Of a DNA stretch of 64,000 nucleotides, positions 1 through 64,000 are shown piece by piece. The position numbers and the translations under genes were made by a program. The stretch is from Dysidea avara. Taxonomy: Eukaryota; Porifera; Demospongiae; Dictyoceratida; Dysideidae. Location: contig NC_089279.1 in assembly GCF_963678975.1 (NCBI RefSeq), positions 30,091,160-30,155,159 of the forward strand, given 5' to 3'. Within the stretch, counting starts at the first letter, position 1. Each line of letters starts with the position of its first letter. The notes under the pieces were generated by a model, which was not told the origin of the DNA, did no database searches, and saw only the letters and a list, made by a program, of their open reading frames with translations.

Positions 1-396
1 CCGTCGAATGGGTAAAAGGCAGGAAGTGACGTGGTGGATCACGTTTTTCCGCTTTGCTTTCAGACATATAGCAAAGATTTACGCAATAGAGCGGTGACAC
101 CTGACGTCACAGTCGCTTCCTCGGGGCAGAAAATGTATCACGCCACAGGATAAGAGTTATGTTCGAGCGAGCGAGACTACGTTTTGAGCGTTCGATTGGT
201 GTTGAGCAAACGAGTATGTAGTTGTGTGATAACTAAGCTGGTAAGTTTATAATGGGTTTAATTCCACGTAACTACTGTGAGCTTACAGACAGCAATTGGG
301 TGTGGCTTCGTACACATCTAATATTACAATTTCCCAATAATTATATTAAAGTGGGTGTGGCTCACAAAAGTACTTATCCTGCTGCAAGACTAGACT
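1..396 (+). promoter_or_regulatory. 5' flank of the RecQ-like gene, partly repeated elsewhere
   Basis: Non-coding leader before the RecQ-like start codon. The stretch from about 148 to 215 is clearly similar to 19139-19216 inside a hAT-like MITE (shared words include GACTACGTTTTGAG and TGTTGAG), and 345-365 resembles 19372-19390 (AAGTGGGYGTGGCTCAC). A weaker match to 68-110 (ACGCAATAGAG followed by ACACCTGAC) occurs near 55520. I see no clear TATA box. The segment is richer in CG dinucleotides than most of the window, as a promoter could be. Its repetition fits the leader of a mobile element. The left terminus of that element was not identified and may lie outside the window. Confidence 0.4.
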
Positions 397-1850
397 ATGT
401 ACAACGTCTCAGGTACTGAACAAGTACAATTGGAAGATACTCCAGAGAGAATAATACTTGATGTAGCGGAAAAGATGGGCATAGCAAACCTCAAGCCCAA
501 ACAACTTGAAGCGATTTCTGCATTTTTGTCTGGAAGAGATGTTTTTGTATCATTGCCTACAGGATACGGGAAATCCATAATATTTGCTCTTTTGCCTGCA
601 ATGTTTAATAGAATAAGAGGTATGAACTCTTAATGATGCTAAACACACACTGACACATTTATTACATTGTGCCTCTAGATTGCAATGATAGCCTGGTCGT
701 GTGCATCAGCCCTTTAGCATCCCTTGAAATGGATCTTACGGAGAAATTTAGAAGCAGAGGGATAAATGCTGTGTTTGTCGGTGAGCAGCAAAAAGACTGG
801 GGTCAAAGAAGAAGAGTGTTGGATGGAAATGTTGAAATTGTGTTCACCAGTCCGGAAAACATTATCTGCAATAAAATGTACAGAAACATGTTACGCAGTG
901 AAGTATACAAGAAGAGACTAGTGGCTTTGGTTGTTGATGAAGCACATTGTGTGAAAACATGGTGAGTTGTACATGTGTGCTTTTATAATATAGTGCTTAA
1001 AAACTACATTTGCAGGGGTGATGAGTTCCGAACAGAATTTTCTAAGATTGGAGAATTGCGCAGTTTAATTCCTACCTCTGTAAACATCATGGCATTGACA
1101 GCAACAGCAACTTCAGAAGTTCTCAAAGTTGTTACAGAACGTCTGTCACTTGATAACCCACTCATCATTGGATTATCTCCCAGCCAAAGCCATATATTCT
1201 ACAATGCAGAAAAGCTTCCAGATATTGCAAACTATTGTAGAGAACTGAGTGCAAAATTGAAGATCAAACGCCTCTCTTTTCCTAAAATATTGATTTTTTG
1301 TCGCAGTTATGCTGACTGTGGTACAATGTACCGTATTTTAGAAGTACTGATGGGACCACACTTCACTGAGCCATATGGTAGTCCTGCCAAATTCCACTGT
1401 TTTAGGCTTGTAGATATGTACACCAGGGCCTCTACCAGCAAAATGAAACAGAAAGTTTTGAACTCATTCGTCACTGTCAACGGAAAACTCCAGGTAGTGA
1501 TAGCAACAACAGCTTTTAGTATGGGCATAGATTGTCCTGAAATCAGGACAGTAGTACATTTTGGAACACCTGGTACTGTTGAGGAATATGTACAAGAGAG
1601 TGGTCGTGCTGGTAGAGACCATAACCCTGCAACAGCACGTATGTTGTATGGAAAACCTCCAAAAGGTACATCAGTGCAAATGAAATCTTATGGCACCAAC
1701 AAAAGAGAATGTAGGAGAAAGCTTCTTTTCAAGAACTTTTTGTTTAGCTCTGAAAACAGCGATGATATCCAGTTATGTAAATGTTGTGATAACTGTGCCA
1801 AAACTTGTAAATGTAGTGATTGTAGTAGTGGTGATAACATTGTACAGTAA
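397..1850 (+). CDS. RecQ-family superfamily 2 DNA helicase, element-associated
   Basis: Predicted ATP-dependent 3'-5' DNA helicase of 446 residues from three exons: 397-619, 679-961 and 1016-1850. The introns are 59 and 54 bases with GT-AG ends, and splicing keeps the frame. Visible motifs in order are a Q-motif-like lead (LKPKQLEAI), Walker A (LPTGYGKS), DEAH box (VVDEAHCVKTWG), motif III (ALTATAT), motif V (TAFSMGIDCPEIRTVVHFG) and motif VI (QESGRAGRD). After the helicase core comes a short cysteine cluster (CKCCDNCAKTCKCSDC) like the RecQ zinc-binding subdomain. No HRDC or exonuclease domain is present, so it is far shorter than BLM or WRN. The frame is fully open. It converges on the DUF6589 gene with 64 bases between stops. 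Helicase assignment is firm; membership in a mobile element is inferred from the pairing, the repeated leader and the compact introns. Confidence 0.93.
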
Positions 1851-1868
1851 TTAAATTTACAATAACTA

Positions 1869-1874
1869 AATAAA
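1869..1874 (+). terminator. Candidate polyadenylation signal of the RecQ-like gene
   Basis: AATAAA lies 19 bases after the TAA stop, inside the 64-base gap that separates the two convergent genes. The gap is so small that the two 3' UTRs must overlap or be extremely short. Confidence 0.5.
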
Positions 1875-1914
1875 AGTTAATATTACAGTGAGAAAGATCC
1901 AGACAAAATTACGA

Positions 1915-4900
1915 TTATGAATGTTTACATATTATACTATCAATCTTTTCCTTTAGCCACTTGTCCAGCTTTTCCTTGTTGATCTGCTCTAAATGTCCCT
2001 TAGGCAACTTAAAGCTGCTGTGTGTCCTTTGGTCTTTCTTGACAAAAACTTCCTTCTCTTCAAGTGTCCGTAAAACTATGTTAAAGTCCTTCTCATTTGA
2101 TTTCTTTTTATGATGGTCACTCTCTCTCTCTACTCCCAATTCTCTAGCAAACTGACGACAAACATCACTCACAACACCAATAGTGTTTGCTGCTCTCTGG
2201 ATGGTACCAAAGCTGTTGTTAGGACCAAGGTTTCTTAGAATCCCTTTTAGCCTATTATTCAAATGTTCCATGTGCAGGTCTGAGGGGATGTTGCATCCTG
2301 CTCTGCCTTTAGTATTAACAAACCGCCCCCATTTCAGCTGTGCTACTAACCTGGGGGATAAAATATGCAATTGACTAAGAAGGTTTACAGCTTCACCAGA
2401 ATAATTCTTGCAACCACCAGACTTGAAGACAAACAGCAGGAATCGCCAATACATTATCACTTTGTCACCATCTCCCTCCCTGATGGCATCGTTGAATCCA
2501 CTCCATAACAACCCTAAAGTTAGCACTTCTGTGGCATAGACATGCACACTGTCTACAGATTGGCATGGTTGTCCAGGACGCCTTGTTTGCCTGGGTTGAC
2601 GTTGCCTTGGTTGACGTTGCCTTGGTTGAGGTGGTTTAGGCTTCGGTAGCTCAATTTTAACATACTGCTCAACTAAAGCAGCAGCCATGTCATAGACCAT
2701 TTCATAATCATTGGAAGTCAGGATGGTCTTGGCAGCTGCTACGACATGAGCATCTAGGACAACACCTAAAAAATCTTCACATGCTCTCAAATTGTCTTTG
2801 GGATCAGTAGGAATATTGGTTCTGTTAATCTCATTTTTAAGCTGAAACAGAGTGCCCTTCTGTGTAGCTGACTGCTTGGAGTAAAGCCATTTCCATATTA
2901 CCTGTGAACAAAATTGTAAAATATAAACAAGCTGTTTTCACAGTAAGAAATGAATTCTACCTTGACAAGAGTCATATTAGTATGCCAGTCATCAACTACA
3001 GGTACAAGTCCTTCCAATCGGTCCAGCTCATTCTCAGAATGATGGCGTACAGATTGGGCAGTACGCTCACGAGCTGCTGTTAACTGGTCTCCACTGCAGC
3101 AAATTGGATGAAAATTGTACTCAGTGTATGTCAGTGTATCTCCTGCGTCTGCAAAAGTTATTGTCACATTGTTAGTTTGAGTAGGCACATATCGATGTAT
3201 CTGATCCATGATTCTTGCCATCTCATCGATCTTGTTTTCATTAAGATTAATGACTCCCAGTGGGACCTGATATACGTAGATTAAATCCATAAATCACAAC
3301 ACAATACACATATTCATACCACAGTAGATTTCATTGACATTTCTTCACTGTACAGAAATGGAATGTGCCATAGTACATCTTTCTTCTGTGTTGAAAATTT
3401 CTCCATCTGCTGTACAAGTATCCTAAATAAGCAAACAATAGCAACCCTTTTGTGTATGCATATATATATATACATTATTTTTTATAGCAAATAGTATAAT
3501 AATAATGACACAGCAAGTGTATAAACACTATTGTAATTAGCTGATTCGGCTCTCCACCAATCGCAGTTCAGTGGAGATAGCAGGATGCTCTGATGGCTGC
3601 AACTTTCTGCTCCCTCAAACAGCCAGCACAGCAGAACATAATAAAGAAAATGAGATGGTACAACACATCCAGGAGAGTGAACACACACACGCACGCACGC
3701 ACACACACACACAGACACACTAATGAATACCAACATACCTTGAAACTAGTACTTTAAAGTGTTCTTTTATACTACACAGGTCATTAAGACTTGGTAAGAT
3801 ATCTTCAGGAGTGATGGCTACATTTTGTGGTGGAGCATTAGAGTAAAGAGAAAGGTCTATCCAATCTTTAGCTGCATACATATGAACACAGTGTAACGAC
3901 TTGGTTTGATGATAAATACGCTGGAAGCTTGGACGGAAGTTCTTGTCCACATTGTCTATAGTAATCTTGAAACCTGACCAAGCATTTGATTGTACTGTCA
4001 CTACATCCCCTAATGTGGCTCCTTCATTTGTGTTGACTGGTGTTTGTTGTCCAACTGTGTCTTCATTTGCACGAGCTACATGATCAATAGTTACAGGTTG
4101 TCCTGGTAAACTGTGTTCATCATTGGGTGATCTCACTGGACTATAGGCAGGAGCAATATAGGACATGTCTAATTCACTGATAGAAGTATCAGGCTGGATA
4201 TATGAATACTCATTAAAAGTAAGTGATGTATCCATTTCTATATGTGATGTATCAGAAGCCGGCCAGAAAGACTCAGATTCTTGTGATTCACCACTACCAT
4301 CAGCAACGCTACCATCAGTAAAACTATGATCAACAACACTACTATTCACAGACACTTGTCTACTAAGTACTGATGATCTGCTGGGTGAGAACTCAGCAGC
4401 TGAATCTTCACACTGACCAATGTCAATGTTGCCAATTGTTTCATAGTTAAAGGACCTTTCCTATAAATATAAAATACAATTAAACGGCATTCATAAACTA
4501 TAGCAACTCTGTATAACTGACTCTAAGACATTGACAAACTATTTTATGGAGAATGTGCTGTTCTTAAAAAAAAATTATATAGTAATGCACAAGGTCGGGT
4601 CAATTGAATGGTTAAATGCAGCTCAAGTAGGTATATATGTTCATGAAACCTACCTCTATATATTTCTTCAACTCATCCGCCCAAAACAAAACCTCAACAT
4701 CATGGTCTTCTGACAGACGGTTCACCAATGCAATGGTCCGCTTGTGGGACAGGCAAACCATTAAAGGTTGCAAGCATTTGTATACCTGAAATTATACTTG
4801 ATCGTATATTTTGGTTAGACATAGATTCTGTATGTCCATACCTGTTTATTAGCGCCATTGGCATACAACATAACTGATACGGCTCTTTGGACAAGGGCCA

Positions 4901-5757
4901 TGTGAGGTGATCGACTTTTAATGATGACTCCAATAACAAAGCAGAGCAGGGTCTTGCTAACATGGGGTAAGATAAACTTCACTAAGGCAACCAAAGTAGG
5001 AAGCTTCGCTTTGAATTCTAGAAAGATGGTTTCCCAGCTAAACTGTTTAACAGCTTCATTACTGTCACGCATCATTGAGGGTATTCTTGTGCTGCATATA
5101 TCAGTGAGCTCATTACAGATCTTTCTCCCAAAAGCATTACATGAGAATGCACTGGTTTCTTCAGCATTCACCAATGAACTAGCAAGTGATTTATAAGATC
5201 TGTAAACCAACTTCCTTACACATGTTTTGCGTAGTTGGTCATCAATGTTATATGTGCGTGGTCCAATTACAACCTATAAAAAGCTTGTATATAATACTGA
5301 TCAGTAAGGCTATTAAACATACCTTGACATCTTTTGATGTTGAACTTGGTTGGGAGATTGAGGTGTTTTGACAAACTACTTTGTTTGGTGCCTGCAATTG
5401 GGAATTTAAACTAGGCCTTTTCTGTCCCACATGCGCTGTCGCTGAAGGTGACTGAGTATTGACTGACAATCTTGTCAACTTCCTTGTGATGCCATCAATC
5501 TTCTTTTTCAGATCTTTCTCAATCCGTTCAACAGACTTAGCCAGGTTGTTACAGCAGTTACACAAGTAAGCATTACTGTTGCACTCACAATAGGAAGACA
5601 ATGGTCTTTCAGTGTACTCTAGACTTATCCTTTCCAAGACTCTCTTGGCTTCTGAACCACCTGCTCCATACAGCTTCTTCCGCTTGTGCTGAGAAGAGGT
5701 GTCATCAATTGGCGACTGGCATAGGCAACACTTATCACTCTGTCCATTCGCCATCAT
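1915..5757 (-). CDS. DUF6589-type protein, 1038 aa, seven exons
   Basis: Seven exons on the minus strand join in frame: 5757-5323, 5273-4842, 4785-4654, 4460-3739, 3422-3320, 3266-2961 and 2901-1915, all with GT-AG introns, giving 1038 residues. The N-terminus has a cysteine-rich patch (CCLCQ, then CECNSNAYLCNCC) that could bind zinc, followed by a lysine-rich helix. A serine- and acid-rich linker fills the start of exon 4. The later exons contain signatures I know from the DUF6589 family: IDNVDKNFRPSFQRIYHQTK, ICCSGDQLTAARERTAQ, GLVPVVDDWHTNM and KGTLFQLKNEINR, and near the end CNIPSDLHMEHLNNRLKGIL. The spaced acidic residues (DN.D, GDQ, E) could be an RNase H-like active site, but that is my inference. 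There are no internal stops. Function is unproven; the convergent RecQ helicase suggests a shared role in movement of a DNA element. Confidence 0.85.
3680..3721. repeat. (AC/GC)n microsatellite in an intron
   Basis: A short run of ACACAC and GCACGC units lies in the intron between exons 4 and 5 of the DUF6589 gene. This intron is the longest in the gene and also has a TATATA run near 3461. Confidence 0.8.
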
Positions 5758-5920
5758 TCACGAGGTGACTTTGTCATTCGCGCGCCAAAACTACGCAAGG
5801 GAAAGGCGTACAAACTCGATGAAGACATCCTTGGGTCGTTGTCACCTCTTTAGTTCGTGGTCCAGGCCAATCAACGCTCACCAACCAAGGGGTGATTTGC
5901 CTGCAGAACTTTTCTATTGT

Positions 5921-6009
5921 AGAGTCCCCAGACCCTTTCGGAGCAGGCGCTTATAATTTCCAATCGATAAGCGCCGTGCGGAGAAATAGGGTCTGGCTAC
6001 GCGAGACTA
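5921..6009. mobile_element. Short hairpin MITE (CAGACCC ends)
   Basis: The ends are inverted copies: CAGACCCTTTCGGAGC with GGCGCTTA on the left, and TAAGCGCC with GGGTCTGGCTACGCGAGACT on the right, around a centre of about 12 bases. It would fold into one long hairpin. It lies immediately downstream of the DUF6589 start codon flank and may mark the edge of the two-gene unit. It is followed by a G-run and a C-run (6013-6050) ending in TGGATCCGCCCCTG; a similar GGCGGATCCAGG word occurs near 18318. Confidence 0.6.
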
Positions 6010-6066
6010 GAAGGGGGGGGGCTTCAGCCCCCAAGGCCCCCCCCCCCCCCTGGATCCGCCCCTGCA

Positions 6067-6512
6067 TAATTAGCTAGCTACAAACTTTCTAAATCCACTC
6101 CTTGTAAGATCACATTTTTTTTCGAAATTTTTTTACCAATCATAGCTATTAATGAATCAATGAAATTCTCCTTTCCTGCCATGCAATTAGCTAACACCCA
6201 ATCAGTCACCGTGCAGTTGTTATTAGCTAATGACTTAAGGGTGTGTTTGGGCAGAAATTGGATCATTGATGAGAGGCCATGCAATGGCCTGCTAGCATTT
6301 CTAGACGTTACTGGCAGTGCATGCTCACTCAGGGGCATATTCCACCAAGCCATTATTAATGGGTGTGGCCAGTCAACGAGGCCAGGGAGCGAGGCAGTCA
6401 GGGATCTACGGTGCACCAGATTAGTTTGTCAGTGTCACCTTTACAGTTTACTTTTTGTAATCGCGTTTGTATTTGTAGAGTTGAGATTGAATACATATAA
6501 ATACGCAATAAC
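6067..6512. other. No recognisable gene
   Basis: A frame of about 110 codons exists on the minus strand (6416-6078), but I recognise no domain in it and the composition is unremarkable. Probably repeat-derived spacer before the retrotransposon copy that begins at 6522. Confidence 0.4.
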
Positions 6513-6521
6513 AATTACTCA

Positions 6522-7913
6522 AGGCAAGGCATTTCATCTGACCAACTGGTGACATATACCATCCTGATTTTCATCTTGGTCGTCCTGCCTATTTTAATCT
6601 CTCCGTCAGGAGTACCACTCAGTCTGCTGTCATATCTTCTGCTTCTTAGGCTGGGGTGGCCGCTGCTGTTGGTGAGATAGCTAAGGACACTCAATACCAG
6701 GACATTGTGAATGATAATGAAGGAGATTTTATCCCTCTTGTATGTGAGACCTTTGGTGTTTGGTCACCATATGCCCTATCAATTTTAGGATCCATAGCTG
6801 ACAGAACAACTGTTAGAAACGGTTTGCCTCGAAAGTTTGCTAGGCGCCAACTTCTCCAGCAACTGTCTGTGACTTTGTGGAGGTACAATGCGAAAATGAT
6901 ACTCCGCCAGCATTCGCTTACTTCTGAGGACGAATTTCATGACTTTGACATTCAGTGGTTAAGTTACACTGTAAGTATGATACCAGAGCTCTCAACTCTC
7001 ACTCATTCTGCGTGAGTCTCACGCATTGAAGCAAAATCTCACTCTCTCACTCACAACACCTCAAAACTCACGCATTAATCTCTCAGACTCACAGCATGAA
7101 TCTCGAATCAAAGCAGCACTTTCTTAGCATCACGTGATCACTCGTAAGGGTCTTGCATGCTTGTATGCATGAGAGTGATTATATTCACATATGTTAGGGT
7201 TGTTCAGCCACTAACCATCAACAGAAGCCACGTAAACAGAAAGTTTCCCATTGCTATTATTGACTCATTGGACACACCATAATATAGCTAGCTATATAAT
7301 TAACTGACTTCACAATATTATTTTTAATTATTATTAGCTATACTTAGTCATTTCCATGTTGTGTAGTTATTGTATGTATTTTGGTCATTATCTGTTATAA
7401 TCAAAACAGAGCCTTGTTATAAATGCAGCCCTGTAGACGCGGTGCTCAAATCTGCAAAGAAAGCAACATCAGAATATAACAGGGCACATGCACAGCAGCA
7501 GCAAACAATGAATTATATAATAGCTACGTATACATTATGCAATATAATCCCTTTCTGTATGTGATTAAAGTCTGTATGATTTTTGTCCAAAAATCATGAA
7601 TTTTGATCAAAATTGCATCTGAGAATGTCTTGAGTTACAAACTTTTCTCATACCCCAGACCCCCTTAAGGCAAAATCCTTTGCATTTAGGAGTATGATTG
7701 ACACACTGCAGGTGAGTCTCCTATCCTCTACATAATCTCACTCATTTTCATACCAATCTTACTCTCATTTTCACTTATGTTCTCACTCAAAGTGATTTCC
7801 ACCAGTTGAGAGCTCTGAGTACGCAGCTAGTAATAAGTATATAGTTAGGTAATAAGTAGTAGTATGGTGTAGTTTTCAGTATGTACGTGTGTTTCAGTAC
7901 TTTTGTAAAAAAA
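6522..7913 (+). mobile_element. 5'-truncated non-LTR retrotransposon, copy 1, with nested MITE
   Basis: This is the 3' end of a LINE-like element. The coding part (about 6545-6957) encodes a conserved C-terminal domain with the blocks VAAAVGEIAKD, DFIPLVCETFGVWSPYALS and LPRKFARRQLLQQLSVTLWRYN. It ends in a shared 3' tail (AATAAGTATATAGTTAGGTA...TGTACGTGTG) and an A-run. The insertion is flanked by a 9-bp target duplication AATTACTCA (6513-6521 and 7914-7922), which supports target-primed integration. An 834-bp TIR element (6984-7817) interrupts the 3' UTR. Two further copies in the window (minus strand 7993-8528, and 27521-28186) share the domain and tail. The domain resembles the restriction-like endonuclease region at the C-terminus of R2-type LINE proteins. 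The copy is dead: it lacks the reverse transcriptase. Confidence 0.8.
6984..7817. mobile_element. 834-bp TIR element nested in retrotransposon copy 1
   Basis: The ends are perfect 14-base inverted repeats, CAGAGCTCTCAACT at 6984-6997 and its reverse complement at 7804-7817, extending outward to TAC on both sides with one indel. The flanking sequence is a contiguous retrotransposon tail in the other copies, so the insertion is confirmed by comparison. The subterminal regions are rich in repeated TCTCACTC / CTCACGCATT words. No transposase is encoded, so it is non-autonomous. Confidence 0.75.
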
Positions 7914-7992: not shown

Positions 7993-8528
7993 TTTTTTTT
8001 TACTGAAACACACATACATATACTGAAAACTACACCATACTACTACTTATTACCTAACTATACACTTATTACTAGCTACGTACTTAACTTAACCAATGTC
8101 AAAGTCAGAAAATTCGTCCTCAGCAGTAAGCGAATACTGGCGGAGTATATCATTTTCACATTGTACCTCCACAAAGTCACAGACAGTTGCTGGAGAAGTT
8201 GGCGCCTAGCAAACTTTCGAGGTAAACCATTTGTTCTGTCAACTATGGATCCTAAAATTGATAGGGCATATGGTGACCAAACACCAAAGGTCTCACATAC
8301 AAGAGGGATAAAATCTCCTCCATTATCATTCACAATGTCCTGGTATTGAGTGTCCTTAGCTATCTCACCAACAGCAGCGGCCACCCCAGCCTGAGAAGAA
8401 GCAGAAGATATGACAGCAGACTGAGTGGTACTCCTGACAGAGAGATCAAAATAGACAGGACGACCAAGATGAAAATCAAGGTGGAATATGTCGCCAGGAC
8501 GAGGAGGTTGACAGCATGGAGAGCCTTG
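7993..8528 (-). mobile_element. 5'-truncated non-LTR retrotransposon, copy 2 (minus strand)
   Basis: Reverse-strand copy of the family at 6522-7913. It starts at a T-run (7993-8001, the poly-A tail on the other strand) followed by the same tail, then the coding blocks VAAAVGEIAKD, DFIPLVCETFGVWSPYALS and LPRKFARRQLLQQLSVTLWRYN. The frame shifts near the end, after MIYSAS, and six bases are missing where copy 1 reads DRTTVRNG. Together with copy 1 it forms a tail-to-tail inverted pair around a unique spacer of about 70 bases. Confidence 0.75.
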
Positions 8529-8582
8529 CCAGTATTAGCTATACACTGTTCAAGTTGTTTGCACTGTTTTGTTTTTCTACAG

Positions 8583-10239: not shown

Positions 10240-11285
10240 GTTTTCAAAAAGCCTATAATATGGGATTAGCATTTGTAATAAACAGAAAGTCATGAAAATC
10301 TTAAATGTGTATGGCCACCATATGGTTGTACCTGCTGCCACACACCCAACAAGCCCCATGATTTTGGATTTTCTCCAGAGCAGAAATGTTTTTCTGAGTG
10401 TGAGGATTCCAAACAGAACTTGCATAATCTAAAACTGGTAGGACAAGTGCTCTGAATGCCTTTCTCTTGGCTGAAAAATTACATGTGTACATGTTATGAT
10501 GCAACAAATTTAAAGTTCGAGAAGCTTTCAATGAAACATGCGAGACATGTTTATTCCAAGATAGTTTAGAGTCTACAATAACTCCTAGATACTTGACAGA
10601 TGACGAACACTGAAGAAGGTGGTTGTTCAGGTAGTAGGAATGATGGATAGGTGAATGTTTATTAGAAATACATAAAAACTCACATTTCGAAGGATTCAGC
10701 CTCATTTGTCATGTGGAACACCAAGATGATATTAAATCCAGATCTTTTTGTAAATTTTACAGTCAGCTGTGGAACCCACTGGGCAGTAAATTGCAACATC
10801 GTCTGCAAAAATCTTCATAGGAGATGAGACAACTGGTGATACTCCAGATAGGACAATGGACCAGTCCGAAGCACAACCATTGATCACTACACATTGCTGC
10901 CTAGTAGTAAGAAATGATGAGAACCGCTTTAGCATAGATATCCCAACACCGTAAGCTTTAAGCTTCAGTAAAAGGCATTGATGAGGCACGGAGTCAAAAG
11001 CCTTAGCAAAATCAATGAAAATACAGTGGGTACAAAGATGATTATTTAGGTTAGATGCCCAATCATTAATGGCAGACAGCAACAATGAGGTAGTGGAGCA
11101 CTTTTTTATGAAACCCAAACTGAGCATCACAAAGAACTTGATGGAACTCCAACAACTCATAAAATTTGTTGAAAATAATCCTCTCAAGCACTTTAACTAT
11201 AACACAAATTAAACTGATTGGTCGATAATTGCTAACAAGATGACAATTGTTTATTACCTTTTTGATAAAACTACCATTTGTGATT
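10240..11285 (-). pseudogene. LINE reverse transcriptase fragment (CR1/Jockey-like)
   Basis: Minus-strand remnant of a non-LTR reverse transcriptase. Reading from 11285 downward, the blocks are NYRPISLICVIVKVLERI, HCIFIDFAKAFDSVPHQCLL, QCVVINGCASDW, SGVSP, the catalytic FADD box (KIFADDVAIY), LNPSKCEFL, VKYLGVIVDSKLSW, and the thumb block RALVLPVLDYASSVWNPH. About 20 residues between SGVSP and the FADD box are missing (normally PQGSVLGPLLF...), and frames shift at about 11187 and 10720. Endonuclease and 5' regions are absent. The order and wording fit the CR1/Jockey group. It is a dead, internally deleted copy. Confidence 0.85.
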
Positions 11286-18089: not shown

Positions 18090-21000
18090 CTACTGAGTAG
18101 TATCCTCTTTGTAATCAGATGTGTTACTATTTCTTTGGCCTTTCCTAGTAAGCAGTATCGTCAGAATTACAATTCCTGCCAATGTTCCAAATGCTATTAT
18201 GGCAAAGAAGGAGAATGCCTAAAAAAATATGTATCCATGCATACTAAGTATGTACTTGCAGATGTAACATCACTGTTACCATGTTCAAAAGTTTGTGATA
18301 CCACTAGTATAACAATGGCGGATCCAGGATGGGGCATTTGGGACAAATGCCCCCCCCCCCACACACACACACACACACACACACTTTGTGAAGGAACCAT
18401 ACTTCTTTTGATTGAAATACTAAGTCCATAATATAGATAAAAATATGTATAAATTGCTAACATTTATTGCAAACTCACCTAAAACAAGTCAGACTGTCAC
18501 CCAGCACCTTCATGCATACTAAGCGCCTCTAAAATAATTATTGTGTTGGTGGTATTTAAGACATTCTAGCCTTTAAGAGGTGATTATTTGCTACCTTAAA
18601 AATACAAGAGAATCAACTCTCCAAAACCATCTATATTAGTTTGTTTGTGACCCTCCGCCCCTGTATAATGTACATACATACATACATACATACATCCACA
18701 CATACATACATACACACAGACATACATACATACATACATACATACATACATACATACATACATACATACATACATACATACATGCATGCATCCATACATA
18801 CACACATCCATGCATGCATGCATTCATACATACATCCATGCATGTATGCATCCATACATACATACATACATACATACATACATACATACATACATCCATC
18901 CATCCATCCATCCATCCATACATACATACATACATACATACATACATACAGACATACATACATACATACATACATACATACATACATACACACAGACACA
19001 CAGACACACAGACACAGACACAGACACACACACACACATACATACCAGCGTTGAAACCGGGTCACTACTGCTGACCCGGTTGACCCACTGACCCGGATTT
19101 GACCCGGATGTGACCCGGATTAATTAAAGCCGAGGCGTGCGATAAGAGCTATGTTTCAACTAGTCTCAAGCGAGCGAACAAGACTACGTTTTGAGTGTTC
19201 GATTCGTGTTGAGTAAATATTGCAACTTCAGCCTAGCTGTAGGTTGAAGACCAAAAAAAAAGGTCACCTACTGACAATAGCTACCCCTCATCATAGATAC
19301 CCTCAGTTTCGTGCTACATACTGGACTTACTAATAAATTGGCGTGGCTGAGCGTATGTTGGTAACGCGATAAGTGGGCGTGGCTCACGAAGAGCTACGCG
19401 ATAGCATTTATAAGTTTCCACGTCGTCAAACGAACAATTTCGTTTCTCACGTGATCCAATCTGGGTCAGACCCGGATAATTTGTAAACCGGGTCGGACCT
19501 GGATGATCCAGAGAAAATGTGACCCGGTTGACCCAACCCGGTTTCAACGCTGATACATACATACATACATACATCCATCCATACATCCACACTTACATAC
19601 ATACACACAGACATATATACATACATACATACATACATACATACATACATACATACATACATACATACATACATCCATCCATCCATACATACATACATAC
19701 ATACATACATACATACATACATACATACATACATACATACATACATACATACATACATACATACATACATACATACATACATACATACATCCATCCATAC
19801 ATACATACATACATACATACATACACACAGACATACATACATGACATACAACACCTGAGAGATTTGTATCTGATTTGCAACCATGATGCCTGAGGCCTGC
19901 AGGCCAGTAGGTAGAGTGTTTACAAATCCATTAGATACAATCTGAATGGTGACTGTTTTGTTACGCGGTAAGCTTAATTGAGTCTATATTATATTAATAT
20001 TATGCTCCAAAGTTTTCCTATTGTTCTTTTGGGCACTTCCCTAATTTTCTACCTGTTATGCTTGCTTTTATGCTTTTGAGAAGTGCATTACGTTTTATTT
20101 TGTGCACTTTTCTTCTTTGTGTAGATTTCTTCCAATGAATTAAATGTGAATTTAGGGTGTTACATGAACTGCAACATACTGATAATAGAAATGGCTTGAA
20201 AAGGGCATGGGCACATAAGTTACCAGGCATAATAGCAGGGATCTGGAGGCAACACCAGAGAAGCTACTATATAGCCTAAATATTTTGAGGGAGAAAAGTT
20301 TTGCTGATTTCGAGGTTTTGAGGGTTAACAGTGAAAGTTTTATTCTTGAAATATTTACACCTCCATATATAGTCTAATACATTGTGGGAGTGTGCAAATC
20401 CACGAAAATTTAAATTAGGCAGCATTGCTCAACCTTGAAAACTTTTCCCTTTGAATTATTTAGGCTATATGGTATAGGCATTTTATTGTCTAATACTAAA
20501 CATATCATATTAGTTTTGTATGCAAATATGTGTAAAAATGTTATGCATCGTTTCTGACTGATCTCATGGAATTCTAGCAATTGATATTCAAATGACAGCA
20601 ATTGCTCAGTATATTTTGCAACTTAAATGCAGCACTATGCCATGAAGGTAAGTTACTGCTTGTGATGCCAGCTACTAATGCATTCAGTGAATGTAGCTTC
20701 TCAGCAATGAGGAGAATTGAGACGTATTGCCTGGCGTGGGACCGACTCCCTTCTGGTAAGCTTTGTAAATACTCAAGGCAGTCACTAAGAGTGAGTGGGT
20801 CAGTTCATCTTCTGATTCAATTCAATCAAAAATTGCATTTCACTTAGGTGAAAACTGGATCAACTTAGTGATTTCAAAAGCTACATCAAGTGCATCAATC
20901 TTTGATTGCTTGATGGTAGAAGCAATAGCCATTTTGAGTGCATGGTAGTAGCAGTGTGTCTAAAGTGTTTGTTTCTTAATATCTGCAGTTGTTTTGCAGC

Positions 21001-27000: not shown

Positions 27001-30000
27001 TGGGTAAAAAATGCAAGCTCCAGAAAAAAATTATGCAAGTTTTTATCGCCTCACTGTTGGGCGAATTAAACTTCCAATGGATAAATCCTGAGTATCATCG
27101 CGTTCGCCTGTTCATAGGGAGTACAAACATCTATGTTTCATCTCCATACAGGAAAAGATTTCAAAGTTACAGACATTTGTTTACGTTGCGGTGACAAAAG
27201 AATTTACCGACGATCGTTTGTCAGTGAATTTGCTTTCCTTCGCGAACACAGAAGCATGCCTGGGGCAAAAACTATACCTTGGTGGATGCAAAAATTCATG
27301 GCGAACACAATGAGCTAAGATTCAATTCCGTACGCCACTGTATCAGTATGTTATGATGGTTTATGTAAGCGCCTGTAGATTCTTTTCTTGATAACTTCTG
27401 TACATATCAATTTATTTGCTCATTCGGCTGTCTAGTACTGTATTTCCAACGCTGCTTAACTTATCAAGCTGAAACTTAGCTAGTCCATTCCTCTGTCCCT
27501 GTAGAAAACAAAGAACAAGTTGGTGATCATCTGCTGGGGTGCTCTCATGGTCCCTTGAGGATCCAGCGTCATAATACTTTAGTGTCTGTTGTACACCATG
27601 CCTTGCTCCAAGATCACCCTGGTGTTCTTAGGGAGCAAGGCATTCCATCTGACCGATCTCGTCCTGGCGACATATACCACCCTGACTTTCATCTTGGTCG
27701 TCCTGCCTATTTTGATCTCTCCATCAGGAGTACCACTCAGTCTGCTGTCATATCTTCTGCTTCTTCTCAGGCTGGGGTGGCCGCTGCTGTTGGTGAGATA
27801 GCTAAGGACAACCAATACCAGGACATTGTGAATGATAATGGAGGAGATTTTATCCCTCTTGTATGTGAGACCTTTGGTGTTTGGTCACCATATGCCCTAT
27901 CAATTTTAGGATCCATAGCTGACAGAACAACTGTTAGAAACGGTTTACCTCGAAAGTTTGCTAGGTGCCAACTTCTCCAGCAACTGTCTGTGACTTTGTG
28001 GAGGTACAATGCAAAAATGATACTCCGCCAGTATTCGCTTACTGCTGAGGACGAATTTCCTGACTTTGACATTGGTTAAGTTAAGTACGTATAGGTAGTA
28101 ATAAGTATATAGTTAGGTAATAAGTAGTACTATGTTGTAGTTTTCAGTATGTACGTGTGTTATGATCATCATAAAAATAATTTTAAAAAGAACAAGTAAA
28201 ATGCAGTTTGAAAATTGTGCGTATATCGACGGTTTTCTAAAATTAGGTCACATTTGTGGAATTGTCAGTTGAGGAGAAAAGAATAATTATGTAAGCAGTG
28301 TTTTTCACATAGCAATTACAAGTTTGGGGCCATGTTTTTATCAACATCTCCACCCCAAATCAAAAACTGATCTACTGAGGGAAGGTCTTTGAGAAAGCAA
28401 CAACATCCCCTACAGTTTGCTTGTGGAATGTCACTAAGTAAGCAGTTGGCAGGTAGCAAGTCTGTTGGTGCATGTGGCTACTCACTGCGTTCTTACTCAG
28501 ATTTACCATGTCAACAGTGTTATATGTATGTGAGAAGAACCTTCTAGTTAACACTGTTTAGCCACTTGCATTAATTATTAATCTATTTGAATTAAAATTA
28601 CATCTGCTAAACTTACCACAGATGCTGCTTCAGAATTTCTCACTCTCTTTTCATCATTACAAATGTCTCTGTCACAGTCATCCAGGTAATCGTTACCAAT
28701 ATAATCACTGAAATATACTGCACTAGCAACCCCTCCAGAAACATAGGATATTGCAAATACAACACTGATACCAACATCCTGTAAATGCAACATTTGGTGA
28801 ATAAATAATATGCATGTGTATGCGCATAATTAAACATGCAACACTTATGCATGTGGTAAGTGCATTACTAATACTGTACCATACATGCAAAATCCATAAT
28901 AATTGAATTTGACTCTTCTATGTTGCTGTTTCCTACACACTTTACATACAGGGACAGTTAGGGCTACGGGTTTCTCTTCTAAAGTAATAAACATTGCCAG
29001 ACTTCTCCAAATGCAAAGCAGTGTAACCACTACCGTGCCGTTTCTGATTATTAGATATTGTCAAGACAGATGATGGTGTGCAAAAGGAATAGGTGAGACG
29101 GATCACAGATGATGGAATAGGTGTATGATATGGTCCCTTCTTGAAAGTACACAGATTTTGCCTTTCATCGTATAGTCGATACCCCAAATACCAAATTTAA
29201 ACAAGATCACCTGTTTCTGAAATATGAACCTCAAAATTAAGTTATTATTTTTTGTGGGGACCTAATTTTCCACATTTTTGCACACTTTACAAAAACAGTA
29301 TAAAGCAAATGCACTCAATTGCCATGAAACTTGGCATATAATAAGGAAGTATTGAGGCAAATTCACATACCAAGTCTGGTATAAATCTGATATCCATTCA
29401 TAAAGTGATTGTGATATCTTTATTATTCTAATTGATACACACTCATTACATAACATAATATTACATCATCAATATGCTAAAGTGATTACTTGTGTAATAA
29501 AATCGCCACATGTGTGGGGTAAACTGCTTATAGGAATAAGTTGAAAATTGGTCTTACATAGGTTAAGCATCAAAGCTAAAATGCTTCTGATTAAATGAAT
29601 CATAGTGATAGCTACAGAGATACAGAGAAAACTAAACTAGTGTAAACTTTCAAAATATGTATTCTAATAGAACAGTCACTGACCATATCAAACTCCCAAA
29701 CCCTTCACTTTGGTCAGCTGCTCATCTCATTTAATTTCTACCCTATGAATGAAAACCTAGCTAAGCTAAATAATTATACAATTAAGTACTAAGAATAATA
29801 CAAAACGCGGTTAAAATTACGTCATAAATAAATAAATAAACAATTAATAATTAATGTTTGAGAAAACTACGAGGCCTAGAGACATAAACTAACTGGGGAT
29901 TGATTCACCTGTGAATGAAGGCACAAACGTATAATCGTTGCGCCCGTTTGTGCTGATGACTTGACCATACATGTAATTCTATATAAAGCCCAGTACCACA

Positions 30001-48792: not shown

Positions 48793-48939
48793 ACATGTAA
48801 TAAATTAATGTTCATTACCATACCATGAATACTTCAGCTTGCGGGGAAAGTTGCTAATCTAGCTAATATATAGCCTTTAAAATGTTTTATGGGGCTTCAC
48901 ATATCACCTTAGGGGTAGTCTGTTATGACTGAACTCGAC

Positions 48940-49036
48940 TATAGACCATGTGCGCGCTAAGGCGTGGCACCTTATTACATCATCAAAAATATTACGTGAA
49001 ATACGCATCCGCCATTTTTGGAGGGCAAAAGACTTA
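48940..49036 (+). repeat. Left terminal inverted repeat of the ISL2EU-like transposon
   Basis: Matches 53938-54033 in inverted orientation, with one extra A and a few substitutions (CACCTTATTACATCATC versus CACTTTATTACATCATC). The first codons of both genes lie just inside the repeats. Confidence 0.92.
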
Positions 49037-49970
49037 GAAGGTGACTCGAGAATGTCTTCAGAATATTTCCATTCATTGGAACATTTAGCTCAAAGAGTAT
49101 ATTTAGAGAACCTTAAGATCGATGGCGAAGTTCTCCCCGACCCGTTCTCCATTTCCCAGGATTTATGGAAGGATGACATGACGCAGTGGCCAGATTTGCT
49201 GTATGGAGATGTGTACTCGTATTTGATAGAAACGAAAGGACCATATACCAAGGAGAAATTGAGAGCTTATAAGTCTCTTGATGCATTTAATTATTTCGTT
49301 TGTGGACACGTCCGCACAGTCTACTGCCATTGCTTGGAAAATTATGTTGTCCTAAAGGCCTTTGTGAATCCTAGTCAGAAGACCCCAGATAAACCCCACT
49401 CAGCCTGGCTGGTTGTGCATAAGGAAAGTGCTGAAGTAAAGACTGGTCACTGCACATGTATGGCAGGGTAAGGTTTGCTTGTTGTGTTTACCATGAATCT
49501 AATAATTTTTGCAGTCAAGGTGAAGTGTGCAGCCATGTTGCTGCAATACTTTTTAAGATTGAAACTGCATGCCGATTAGGACTTAATAAGCCATCTTGTA
49601 CCTCTACAAGCTGTGGATGGAACAACTGGTATAAAGAAAATGTTGGTTTACAGCTTTAATATGTGTGCATTTTAAATTTTTGCAATTCCAGATTAATCCA
49701 GCTGAGGTCAGAAAAATTGATTTTGTTAAACCAAAACATGCGTCTAAAAGAAAAGGACAAGTCAACAGCCAGCCAGATGCTGTGGCTAAGCGTATGAAAA
49801 CAAATTCACCACAGATTCCCTCAGAAATTGTGTACAATGCCATGTACACTGCAGTACCTAATGCTTGCTTGTTTACAATTGTCCCTAAACCAGATCATAT
49901 ACTTGCTCAACCAGCTACTGTCTCTGTCACCCTGTCATCAACTGTAACAGCATCATCATCACCGCTAGTC

Positions 49971-50470
49971 ATTCAATCAACTGTTACTTCTCTGCCCGTC
50001 ACTCAGTCGACTGTCACATCACTGCCCGTCACTCAGTCGACTGTTACTTCACTGCCTGTCACTCAGTCGACTGTTACTTCGCTGCCCGTCACTCAGTCAA
50101 CTGTTACTTCACTGCCCGTCACTCAGTCGACTGTCACATCACTGCCCGTCACTCAGTCAACTGTTACTTCACTGCCCGTCACTCAGTCAACTGTTACATC
50201 GCTGCCCGTCACTCAGTCAACTGTTACATCGCTGCCCGTCACTCAGTCAACTGTTACTTCACTGCCCGTCACTCAGTCAACTGTTACATCACTGCCCGTC
50301 ACTCAATCAACTGTTACTTCACTGCCTGTCACTCAGTCAACTGTTACATCACTGCCCGTCACTCAGTCAACTGTTACATCACTGCCCGTCACTCAGTCAA
50401 CTGATACTTCACTGCCCGTCACTCAGTCAACTGATACTTTACCACCGGTCACTCAGCCGACTGTTACATC
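49971..50470 (+). repeat. 30-bp in-frame minisatellite (TVTSLPVTQS repeat)
   Basis: About sixteen copies of a 30-base unit (ACTGTTACTTCACTGCCCGT CACTCAGTCA) encode the decapeptide TVTSLPVTQS. Differences between units are mostly silent (TTC/TCA/TCG, CCC/CCT), so the array has kept its frame and sequence while drifting at third positions. It links the SWIM and YqaJ regions as a serine/threonine-rich spacer. Confidence 0.92.
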
Positions 50471-50882
50471 CCATGTATCTACTGATACTATGTCCAGCGT
50501 GTGCTTACTTCCCTAATCTCTTATAGATTTATAAGATACACAATACAAATTGCTGAATAAGGAGTTGTTGCTAAAGAAAAGCCAAGAAATATTTAGAAGT
50601 ATTTCTTTTACTGTCAACCAATGTAAAATCATTGAGCAGGTGACAAGGTCTCAAAGGCAGAGCACCAAGTGGTACAACCAAAGAAGAGGCCGTATCACTG
50701 CTTCTTCGTTTCATGACATTTTCATTTTTAAAGAAAAAAAAGATCCTGTTAATCTTCTGAAGAGACTGCTTCAACCTCAGGACATTTCTCATGTCCCTGC
50801 TATCAAATGGGGAATCGAGAAAGAAGATCTTGCAAGGTCAGCATATGTTGCAAAGGTGTCACCATTGCATCAGGGCTTTGAA

Positions 50883-51411
50883 GGGAGTTTGTAAAAGACA
50901 GAATAAGGAATAGCGGAATAACGGAATAACTCGCATCACAACGAACGGGCATTTATATGGCTTATGCAATGTTAGGGTGATTGTACTGTTACAGCTGTGA
51001 ACTCATCCTTCGTAGATATCCTTACAATGTTAGGGCGATTGCGTGTACTGTTACAGTTGTGAACTACACTGTTTCGTCGCTCATAGCCGTCCTAGCGAAG
51101 TGATTACTATATGCTCTTACTACTACTGTATGTAGCTAAGTATCATTGTGCTAGTACAGCTAGAATATACAGTAGTTAGCTATTAGTTTCGTTTTAAGTC
51201 TAGGACATCTATGAGTGACAAAGCAGTGTAGTTCACAGCTGTAACAGTACACGCAATCACCCTACATTGTAAGGATATCTACGAAGGATGAGTTCACAGC
51301 TGTAACAGTACAATCACCCTAACATTGCATAAGCCATATAAATGCCCGTTCGTTGTGATGCGAGTTATTCCGTTATTCCGCTATTCCTTATTCCGTCTTT
51401 TACAAACTCCC
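50883..51411. mobile_element. 529-bp Mutator-like MITE inserted in the YqaJ gene
   Basis: Arms of about 200 bases are near-perfect inverted repeats from GGGAGTTTGTAAAAGACAGA inward past CGCATCACAACGAACGGGCA to GTTACAGTTGTGAACTACAC. GGCTTTGAA flanks both sides (50874-50882 and 51412-51420): a 9-bp duplication with long TIRs, as in Mutator-like elements. Within each arm a shorter unit (GTGATTGTACTGTTACAGCT...) is itself duplicated. The reading frame of the host gene continues exactly across the insertion if one duplication copy is ignored. Confidence 0.9.
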
Positions 51412-52162
51412 GGCTTTGAATGCAGTTCTAGTGGATTGATTGTTAGCTGTCGTTATCCACACTTGGGTGCAAACCCTGATGTATTGGTTAGGTGTGATTG
51501 TTGTGGTGAGGGTATACTTGAAATTAAGTTCCCATTTTCAGGCAGAGAATGCCATCCAACTGAGCTTCAAATCAGAAAGAATTCTTTCTTGACTGAGTTT
51601 GGACTTCTGCGTAGTCACAAATATTTTGCACAAGTACAAGGGCAGCTTGCAATTTGTGGCAAACAATACTGTGACTTTACTGTGTGGACACCACATGGAA
51701 TTTTGGTGCAAAGAATAGAGGAAGATACTAACTTTACAGAAGGTTTGCTTAAAAAACTGACCAAGTTTTATGTTGAGCACATGCTACCAGAGATCATGAC
51801 ACACTCTATTGTGGATGTGGGTACTGATGAACCAAATAATTCCCAGTCTACTTTTGCAGCTAGTGGATCATCAGATGTAAAAGAAAAATATTGATATTGT
51901 CGTAAGGGAGAAAAGGGAAGGATGATTTGTTGTGACAATGATGACTGCAAGATTTCTTGGTTTCATTTCAGTTGTCTTAAAATAAAGCGAGCTCCAAAGG
52001 GTGACTGGTTTTGTCCGGACTGCAGAAATTAATTACTTTACCATGGATACAGTTTTTTGTATATACACACAATTTTGCTTACTGTAAGATTAGTTGTAGT
52101 ACAGTATATAATTTATTTGCATTTCATTATTCTATGATTCAAACAGCATAAACAAATTAATG

Positions 52163-53922
52163 TCAAACTAAAGGTGGCTGCATGTTGCAGAGTGCAGCAC
52201 ATACAAATAGAATATTGTCTATGGTAGCAAACTCATTGTCTTGACGTGCTTTAACCAAAGTGATAGGTAGTGTACATTGCAGTATCTTGAAGTTCTTAAG
52301 TCTCCCTATTGCACGTTCTACATGGATTCTTACTCTTGATAGTGCTCTTGCTGTTTCAACTTCCTTCTGTGAAAGTTGTGCCTTTCCTTTGGTAAAAGGG
52401 GGGATTGCCAGGGAAGCACCACGAAGAGCTAGAGGTTCAGTAATGTTGAATCCACGATCATCAAGAATTAAATCACCATGCATTAATTTATAAAGGAATC
52501 CACTATGTGCAGTAATATGTTTATCACTGGTACGTCCTCCCCAACATCTTGAAACAAAAATAATTGCTCCTGTTGGACTGATTGCAATTAAAAACTTTAC
52601 AGTGTTGTGATGTTTGTAGTTAGAGTAAGTCTCGGCTCTTGCTGACAATGCACTTGGATGCTGTATAAAAATTTCGGAGCAATCTATAATACACGTGGTA
52701 CGAGAGTACAATGGCTTAAAACAGTCTGGTAAAGTGCTCCGAATCATCCCTCGATCTGGCCATTTCACAAGTGGGGTGAGCTGAGTGGCCATTGTGTCAA
52801 TCCAAAGGTGAAAATTTTTGGATACACGAGTCATGTCAATGTTAAATCTATACCCCAAATCTTGATTAGTCATTGCTGGCCTTAGCTTCATCAGAACCAT
52901 CAAAAGTTGATCGCTTGGGTTTATCCCACATTGCTCATAGGGTGGCATAACACTTGACAATAAGCCAAGCAAGGTGGTAAAGGCTACATATGATGGCAGA
53001 CCAGTATAGAAATGTATTTGCTCATCATCGTCTTTCATCTGTAGAGAAGGGCTGTGTGCTCGTGATGCAATTTTCAATTCTTCTTTTATCATTGCATTGA
53101 TTTCCTGCTGCTTATGAAGACTATTCACAAGTGACTCATTTTGTTCCTTCAGTTCTTTTATTACCAGTTGGTGGTGGTGAAGACTATTTACTAGCAAATC
53201 ATTCTGTTGCTCCAGTTCCTCAATAGTTTTCTGTTGCTGACAAATGGTTGCTGCAAGCCTAGCTGGCTGATGTCTAAGATAATTCTGTGTTAATTCCGAT
53301 AACTTCATTGGTTGATGTAAACAAGCAGATTGGTTGCTGTCTTGAAGCACTTCAGTATCATAATCTACTACCATTTCATCTTGTGCCATATCTACTTGAT
53401 TCTCCAATTCATTTGCAGCTGCACGTCCACGTCTTGGATTCCTGCGTTTCCTCACCGTCTCAGCATTCCTTGGGATCTCATTATTTTGACTCTCTATTTC
53501 ATTTGCAACTGCACATCTACGCCTTAGATTCCTTTGTTTCCTCACCGAAGCATTCCTTGAGATCTGGTTTCGTCTATGCAGCCTCCTACTTCTAGCTTGC
53601 TTGCTGTTTTCTGTTGTAGTGTCTCTCTTTTTAAAGGTAAATATAGATGGCACATAATCTGGATCCCATTTCAACCTGACAGGTTTTCCTGTAAAGGCAG
53701 AAGAATAAAACTACTTTCACAAAGATGCGAGGGAGGAACTGTACCTGATATAAAATGCTCCCCACAGAGACGGGAATGCTCAGTAGGCTGCCATGACTCA
53801 CGACGAAGTGCTTGTATCCACAGGTTCCTTCGTTCTGAATTCTTTGGAAATGTGTAAAGTTTCACTTTCTTCAACCTACTACAACGATTAGTACAGTCTA
53901 TAGCGCTGCAACTTGACAGCAT
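52163..53922 (-). CDS. THAP-domain DDE transposase (Harbinger/ISL2EU-like), intact, 567 aa
   Basis: Exon 1 (53922-53745) encodes a THAP finger: CSAIDC, then LYTFPKN, LWIQALRRESW and CGEHF, and after a 56-base intron exon 2 (53688-52163) completes it with WDPDYVPSIF. A basic stretch with repeated RRRRNxRR-like segments follows, then a coiled coil (QQKTIEELEQQNDLLVNSLH and a second copy ELKEQNESLVNSLHKQQ). An HTH region (LSSVMPPYEQCGINPSDQLL, LGYRFNIDMTRVSKNF) precedes the DDE_Tnp_4 core, with acidic residues in CIIDCSEIFIQ, GDLILDDRGFN and RIHVERAIGRLKN. The frame is open throughout. It binds element ends and catalyses cut-and-paste transfer, judging by the family. The start chosen is the ATG of MLSSCSAIDC, the usual THAP position. 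Confidence 0.93.
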
Positions 53923-53937
53923 TACTCTATTCGCCAA

Positions 53938-54033
53938 TAAGTCTTTTGCCCTCAAAAAATGGCGGATGCGTATTTCACGTAATATTTTGATGATGTAATA
54001 AAGTGCCACGCCTTAGCGCGCACATGGTCTATA
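53938..54033 (-). repeat. Right terminal inverted repeat of the ISL2EU-like transposon
   Basis: Inverted copy of 48940-49036; it ends ...GGTCTATA at 54033 and starts only 15 bases upstream of the transposase start codon, so it probably also carries the promoter. Confidence 0.92.
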
Positions 54034-54257
54034 CTGGAATCCAAAACCAAACCTTGAAACAAACTGTGTATATGTTTCAGGTGAGTTTATGAAAAACAGT
54101 ACAGTATACAAAATGCTGTACGCATATCAAGCATGCACTTGATGGAAACCATAAACTATACAATTACAATACACTCTGCCATGAGGGTTCTAAATATGAC
54201 ACAACCAGTACTACCAGAGTGTAAGATAACTAAAACATTCACCAATCACTATAATTA

Positions 54258-63011: not shown

Positions 63012-64000
63012 TCAGGACGAATCCTGGGCTAGTGACGAACTGTACACATCACAGAAATGACGATGTCTTGTCAGATCTCCTTGGCGTTTGAAACGTCTTC
63101 CACAAATGCAAGGAAAATTTCTTTCCTGGGATGCTCTGTTGGCAGCACAAGTATTTCCTTCCCTACACCGTGCTACCTCATCAACAGCTATTGCACACAA
63201 GTTAGACCACCTTTCACGATCTTGACATACCACATACCAATCCTCAACACTAATTGCCCTTAAGTCAGACATCACTTCATCCCTCCATCGCTTCTTGGCA
63301 CCATAAAATGGCCTTTTCTTCAATAGCTCTCCAAACAAAAGTTGCTTTGGAAATCTGTCACTACTCATACGGCCCAGGTGACCAAGCCACCGTAACCTTT
63401 GATCCAAAACAAAATCAGCTATCGACCAATACAGGCCAAACTGTCCAGATAACTGTTGGGTAGTAATATGATTTTGCTATTGTTGGAATTTAGACACACC
63501 CAAAATTGTTCGTACACAACGGTTGTCAAATGTGGTTAGCCTTCTCACATCAGGAGCTTTCAGAGTCCATGTCTCTGCTCCATATAGCAAAATAGAAATC
63601 ACCACAGCCTTATAGACAACTCTCTTAGTATTAATGGAGAGAGTGCGATTGAGGAAGATTGGTACCCTCAAGCAACCAAAGGCTTTGGAAGCCTTAGCAA
63701 TTCTACAGCTAACCTCTGCAGTGATCTCACCATCACTAGACAACTTGGAGCCTAAATAAGTAAAATCTCTCACCATTTCCATCTCACCACCTTCAACCAC
63801 CACTGGGGAATCATCACCCTCACCAACTGCGGCTCCCACCGCCAAACCTTTTGTCTTAGGCAAGCTAACAGTCAGACCATAAAAACTTGCCACTTGTACA
63901 AATCTCTTACAAACTGACTCAAAGGCTGTACGAGTTACAGCATACAAAGCAAGGTCATCAGCGAACTGTGACTCAGTCACCTGCACCTTCAATAACCTAG
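63012..64000 (-). pseudogene. LINE reverse transcriptase, 3' part, running off the window
   Basis: Minus strand, truncated by the window edge. It begins within the palm (SQFADDLALYA, the catalytic ADD box), then VSLPKTKGLAVG, FTYLGSKLSSDGEI, RIAKASKAFGCL, VVISILLYGAETW, RRLTTFDNRCVRTILGVSKF. After one in-frame TAG (63477-63479) the frame stays open: LDQRLRWLGHLGRMSSDRFP, KQLLFGELLKKRPFYGAKKR, ending in a C2H2-like finger (CICGRRFKRQGDLTRHRHFC) and a stop at 63012. The C-terminal finger is a feature I know from a group of invertebrate LINEs. With a single stop in about 330 codons it is the youngest LINE fragment in the window. It is not the same family as the other LINEs here. Confidence 0.88.

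Follow-up and report, generated by a model that had tools for sequence, protein, structure and literature searches.

A facing RecQ helicase and DUF6589 gene pair in the sponge Dysidea avara, probably the coding region of an AcademH-type DNA transposon

The gene pair is located near the start of a 64,000-nucleotide stretch of the Dysidea avara genome (assembly GCF_963678975.1, contig NC_089279.1, 30,091,160 to 30,155,159 of the forward strand), here called the window, and all positions are counted from its first base. A RecQ helicase gene on the forward strand (397–1850; exons 397–619, 679–961, and 1016–1850) encodes 446 amino acids. It faces a gene on the reverse strand (5757–1915; exons 5757–5323, 5273–4842, 4785–4654, 4460–3739, 3422–3320, 3266–2961, and 2901–1915), which encodes the 1038 amino acids of a DUF6589 protein, the presumed transposase. 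The stops are 64 bases apart (1851–1914). Neither the three-exon nor the seven-exon spliced frame contains an internal stop, and all eight introns are GT-AG, with lengths of 49–59 bases in six of them and of 193 and 316 bases in the other two. Both genes look real and intact, and in these respects (two intact facing genes, GT-AG introns, stop spacing, and open frames) the original prediction is confirmed. The unused frames of the DUF6589 exons contain 3–35 stops each in six of the seven exons and one each in the 103-base exon; given these stop-rich frames and the strong Pfam and NCBIfam matches described below, chance open frames are not a serious option.

The RecQ protein scores 227.2 bits against recQ_fam (NCBIfam TIGR00614; curated cut-off 219.8). 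In Pfam, it matches DEAD (6.9e-25), Helicase_C (3.1e-15), and ResIII, all above cut-off; RecQ_Zn_bind is matched below its cut-off (3.5e-4), and the Pfam scan gave no match to HRDC. With recQ_fam above its curated cut-off and both DEAD and Helicase_C matched, the protein is a RecQ helicase, as had been proposed. Three motifs, which we take to be Walker A, DEAH, and QESGRAGRD, are all intact. Compared with solved structures (best 60 of 132 matched sequences), it scores 153.8 bits with BLM, 144.6 with RECQ1, and 121.4 with RECQ5. Several solved RecQ proteins thus score alike, with no single close relative among the matches listed.

The DUF6589 protein matches PF20231 (E 1.7e-52, 179 bits, gathering cut-off 27) over residues 550–974, covering profile positions 8–410 of 410, and no other Pfam family is matched at E up to 0.001. 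Conservation was read from PF20231 scores of two fragments and eight single-alanine versions, the residues being chosen and none random. Fragment one scores 48.6 bits unchanged, 42.0 with D668A, 44.1 with G667A, 44.8 with Q669A, 40.4 with H703A, and 49.8 with D700A; fragment two scores 58.0 bits unchanged, 49.7 with E922A, 51.1 with D918A, and 53.1 with H923A. D700A is the sole version of the eight that does not lower the score. The drops identify GDQ and the glutamate as features of the DUF6589 family, and D668 and E922 are conserved in its profile. A GDQ, a histidine, and a glutamate kept in this way would be as expected of a DDE transposase. Of the conserved DN.D, GDQ, and E positions that had been claimed, GDQ and E are borne out by the profile scores; DN.D falls outside the Pfam match, D502 being 48 residues ahead of it. 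Taking D502 as the first DDE residue is conjecture, based on its position in a probable β strand. The N-terminal region (residues 10–69, encoded at 5551–5730 of the reverse strand) contains eight cysteines (10, 11, 13, 57, 59, 66, 68, and 69) and is a possible zinc-binding part. An eight-cysteine feature (Cys8) is known from Academ transposons.

The search of solved structures for relatives of the DUF6589 protein gave a best E of 0.76, which is unusable, as is a model of exon 7 alone, made with no alignment (mean pLDDT 41.4, pTM 0.24). DUF6589 could be an independent transposase family, belonging neither to Academ nor to Kolobok, which took up RecQ separately; RecQ would then have been recruited by at least three transposase lineages. 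In keeping with this, no solved structure matched below E 0.76, and we found no paper that ties DUF6589 or PF20231 to a named transposon. The literature searched yielded no link between DUF6589 and Academ, and the one article in which the string PF20231 occurs deals with optics. Transposon papers, however, use Repbase names, so a missing Pfam name weighs little, and the pairing with RecQ already fits Academ; we regard a separate family as unlikely.

The nearest rival to Academ is a Kolobok transposon of the kind that carries RecQ, such as KolobokH or Kolobok-1_CCri, with a DDE transposase, TTAA duplications, and RecQ as accessory gene. It is the nearest because the DUF6589 protein contains DxxH and Kolobok lineages also carry RecQ. 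Kolobok transposases have C/DxxH between the second D and the last E, and Kolobok-1_CCri, like the present pair, encodes RecQ on the complementary strand (PMC9587614). In the DUF6589 protein, DxxH occurs as DDWH (700–703, 32 residues past D668) and DSVH (827–830), and the one beside the second D could point to Kolobok. H703 is kept in the DUF6589 profile, but D700, which would belong to the Kolobok tetrad, is not favoured, the score rising upon its replacement. The protein matched DUF6589 alone in Pfam at E up to 0.001, and KolobokH is reported from fungi only, its transposase domain being upstream of RecQ (PMC9587614). A Kolobok origin of the pair seems improbable.

In the left flank of the RecQ gene (1–396), a GT at 241 resembles a splice donor. 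The right flank of the DUF6589 gene (5758–6523) is bounded by a repeat with more copies in the window, which starts at 6524, and the right end of the element is expected inside this flank. The left end is probably before base 1, outside the window, and the searches for ends are to be read with this in mind. Between the flanks, the highest-scoring inverted match reaches 23, within the range of 200 shuffles (up to 28, 95th percentile 24), a search with 9-base seeds gave one stray match only, and none of the best 25 of 27 pairs from an inverted-repeat search joins both flanks. For comparison, find_repeats recovered the long inverted termini of a different element of the window. Likewise, 14-base ends (at least 12 of 14 matching) together with exact duplications of 3, 4, 9, or 10 bp were found neither in the flanks nor in three shuffled controls; this includes the 3 or 4 bp range into which TTAA would fall, and the left end is probably outside the window. 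The absence of terminal repeats from the window, reported originally, thus extends over seed, inverted-repeat, local-alignment, and joint end and duplication searches. A fold-back repeat of about 100 bases (5912–6012) adjoins the DUF6589 gene; with up to three mismatches allowed, its outer 21 bases match nowhere else in the window.

No further fragments of either gene were found in the 64,000-base window (tblastn, E up to 1). Relatives of the DUF6589 protein were not confirmed in viral contigs (exons 7 and 6) or in prokaryote genome contigs (exon 7 and whole protein), results of little weight, as exact-peptide patterns were used on non-animal collections. The window contains no known RNA at Rfam gathering scores and no tRNA by ARAGORN. 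The RecQ leader had been said to recur at 19139–19390. This holds for 47 bases at 89% (164–210 with 19171–19217), and a 32-base pattern built from both copies occurs twice in the window and in none of 100 shuffles. Beyond these bases, the match is weak: a gapped extension over 148–373 scores 90, and other 600-base pieces of the window reach up to 68. Strong matches with the repeat that holds the leader copy are absent from the right flank (best score 29, given here with no shuffles for comparison). With 47 good bases only, we left the leader match as a weak sign of a non-autonomous derivative.

The surroundings of the pair had been described as mobile-element genes throughout. Forty neighbouring open reading frames of at least 110 amino acids start after base 6000. 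Fourteen were scanned with Pfam, and seven gave matches: six to mobile-element domains, one of these being RVT_1 at 63480–63998 below cut-off, and one to Extensin_1, also below cut-off. The other seven are unmatched, and the description has thus been checked for part of the surroundings. Reverse transcriptase fragments are located on the reverse strand at 10735–11196 and at 63480–63998, the second being the RVT_1 match just mentioned. A repeat is present in three copies (6524–6966, 8085–8497 inverted, and 27635–28083; 92–93% to the first copy), and the reading frames that overlap it (6650–7012, 8079–8534, and 27480–28076) match no Pfam family. A second two-gene element at 48930–54043 has long inverted ends (48930–48988 with 53985–54043, 92%; 48986–49036 with 53938–53988, 98%), with a THAP domain, HTH_Tnp_4, and DDE_Tnp_4 on the reverse strand and YqaJ pieces on the forward strand; it resembles ISL2EU. 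Between two YqaJ pieces, a 148-base inverted repeat (99%, arms 233 bases apart, 50883–51411) is perhaps an insertion in the YqaJ gene.

With several other mobile elements nearby, and neither shared ends nor a second copy in the window, the two genes could also be unrelated, host or domesticated, and neighbours by chance. Both are intact and 64 bases apart, however, and transposons that pair RecQ with a DDE transposase are known (PMC9587614, PMC3627910, PMC6416283). A host or domesticated RecQ is also at odds with the short protein, the unmatched HRDC, and the similar scores with BLM, RECQ1, and RECQ5 among the matches listed. We consider a chance association very improbable; the pair is likely to be a mobile two-gene unit, and it is a fair inference that the two genes are what such an element encodes, a DDE-type transposase among them.

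AcademH was reportedly defined in Kojima 2020. 'RecQ Helicase in Academ' was in print in 2013, as one of the accessory proteins that Kapitonov and co-workers had reported (PMC3627910). In fungi, 1,568 of 1,938 Academ copies have recognisable domains, e.g., PF00270 (DEAD) and recQ_fam, and copies are often annotated as host genes (PMC6416283). AcademH is a named helicase-bearing lineage with target duplications of 9 or 10 bp; those of AcademX are 3 or 4 bp, a difference related to the helicase and nuclease (PMC10045372). DEAD and Helicase_C are AcademH-associated domains (PMC10799480). The pair from Dysidea avara possesses a RecQ-type (SF2) helicase, as expected of AcademH, with recQ_fam above cut-off, DEAD, and Helicase_C, the place of the gene in the element being judged from its position. 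The gene span (397–5757) is 5361 bases, near the mean of 5565 bp of 100 curated bivalve Academ elements of unspecified Academ lineage (PMC10294476), which lends weak support to AcademH.

Taken together, the RecQ identity, the DUF6589 match, the conserved D668 and E922, the published RecQ in Academ and AcademH, and the similar length suggest that the pair is probably the coding region of an AcademH-type cut-and-paste DNA transposon. Against this are the missing link between DUF6589 and Academ in the papers found, the flanks with neither ends nor duplications, the single copy in the window, and the DxxH at 700–703; the last has been allowed for in our estimate. AcademH is the most likely assignment, made by way of the RecQ pairing and the papers' descriptions rather than by comparison with any Academ protein.

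In such an element, the DUF6589 protein would be the transposase in cut-and-paste transposition. Its cysteine-rich N-terminus may help to bind the element ends. Cutting and joining of the DNA would fall to an RNase H-like DDE centre (D502, D668, and E922), proposed from family conservation and analogy. The small RecQ protein may act as an accessory helicase that unwinds DNA at the ends or at the cut or gap during excision or integration.

The pair had originally been put forward as an undescribed two-gene mobile element with a new transposition architecture. The mobile two-gene unit is retained as a fair inference; the claims that it is undescribed and its architecture new are not supported, as RecQ helicases have been published in Academ (PMC3627910, PMC6416283, PMC10045372) and in some Kolobok transposons (PMC9587614). 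The find is largely ordinary, AcademH having been described previously in animals and fungi, and the pair leaves knowledge of transposition unchanged. If the assignment is correct, the pair would provide an AcademH copy that looks intact, with open frames in both genes, and DUF6589, a Pfam family with no assigned function, would gain a likely transposase role. The naming of DUF6589 as a transposase, then of Academ type, is the probable and modest gain. A further caution is that genes of this kind should not be taken for host helicases in annotation, a problem noted for fungal Academ (PMC6416283).

Three known systems can be set beside the pair.

With RecQ helicases (recQ_fam; BLM and RECQ1), the RecQ protein shares the helicase core and what we take to be its Walker A, DEAH, and QESGRAGRD motifs; it differs from them in its length of 446 amino acids, its sub-cut-off zinc-binding match, the unmatched HRDC, and the lack of a single close solved relative. 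KolobokH and Kolobok-1_CCri combine a transposase with RecQ, as here, and a C/DxxH-like tetrad is present in the DUF6589 protein; RecQ is on the complementary strand in Kolobok-1_CCri. KolobokH is reported from fungi only, with RecQ downstream; in the pair, the tetrad D is one that is not conserved in DUF6589, and TTAA duplications are not seen. The 9–10 bp duplications and terminal repeats of AcademH were not found in the window, the left end being probably outside. The DUF6589 protein is likened to the AcademH transposase by way of published descriptions of the lineage. AcademH joins a gene for a DDE-type transposase to one for a RecQ-type helicase, as the pair described here probably does, and the coding span is near the published length of bivalve Academ elements.
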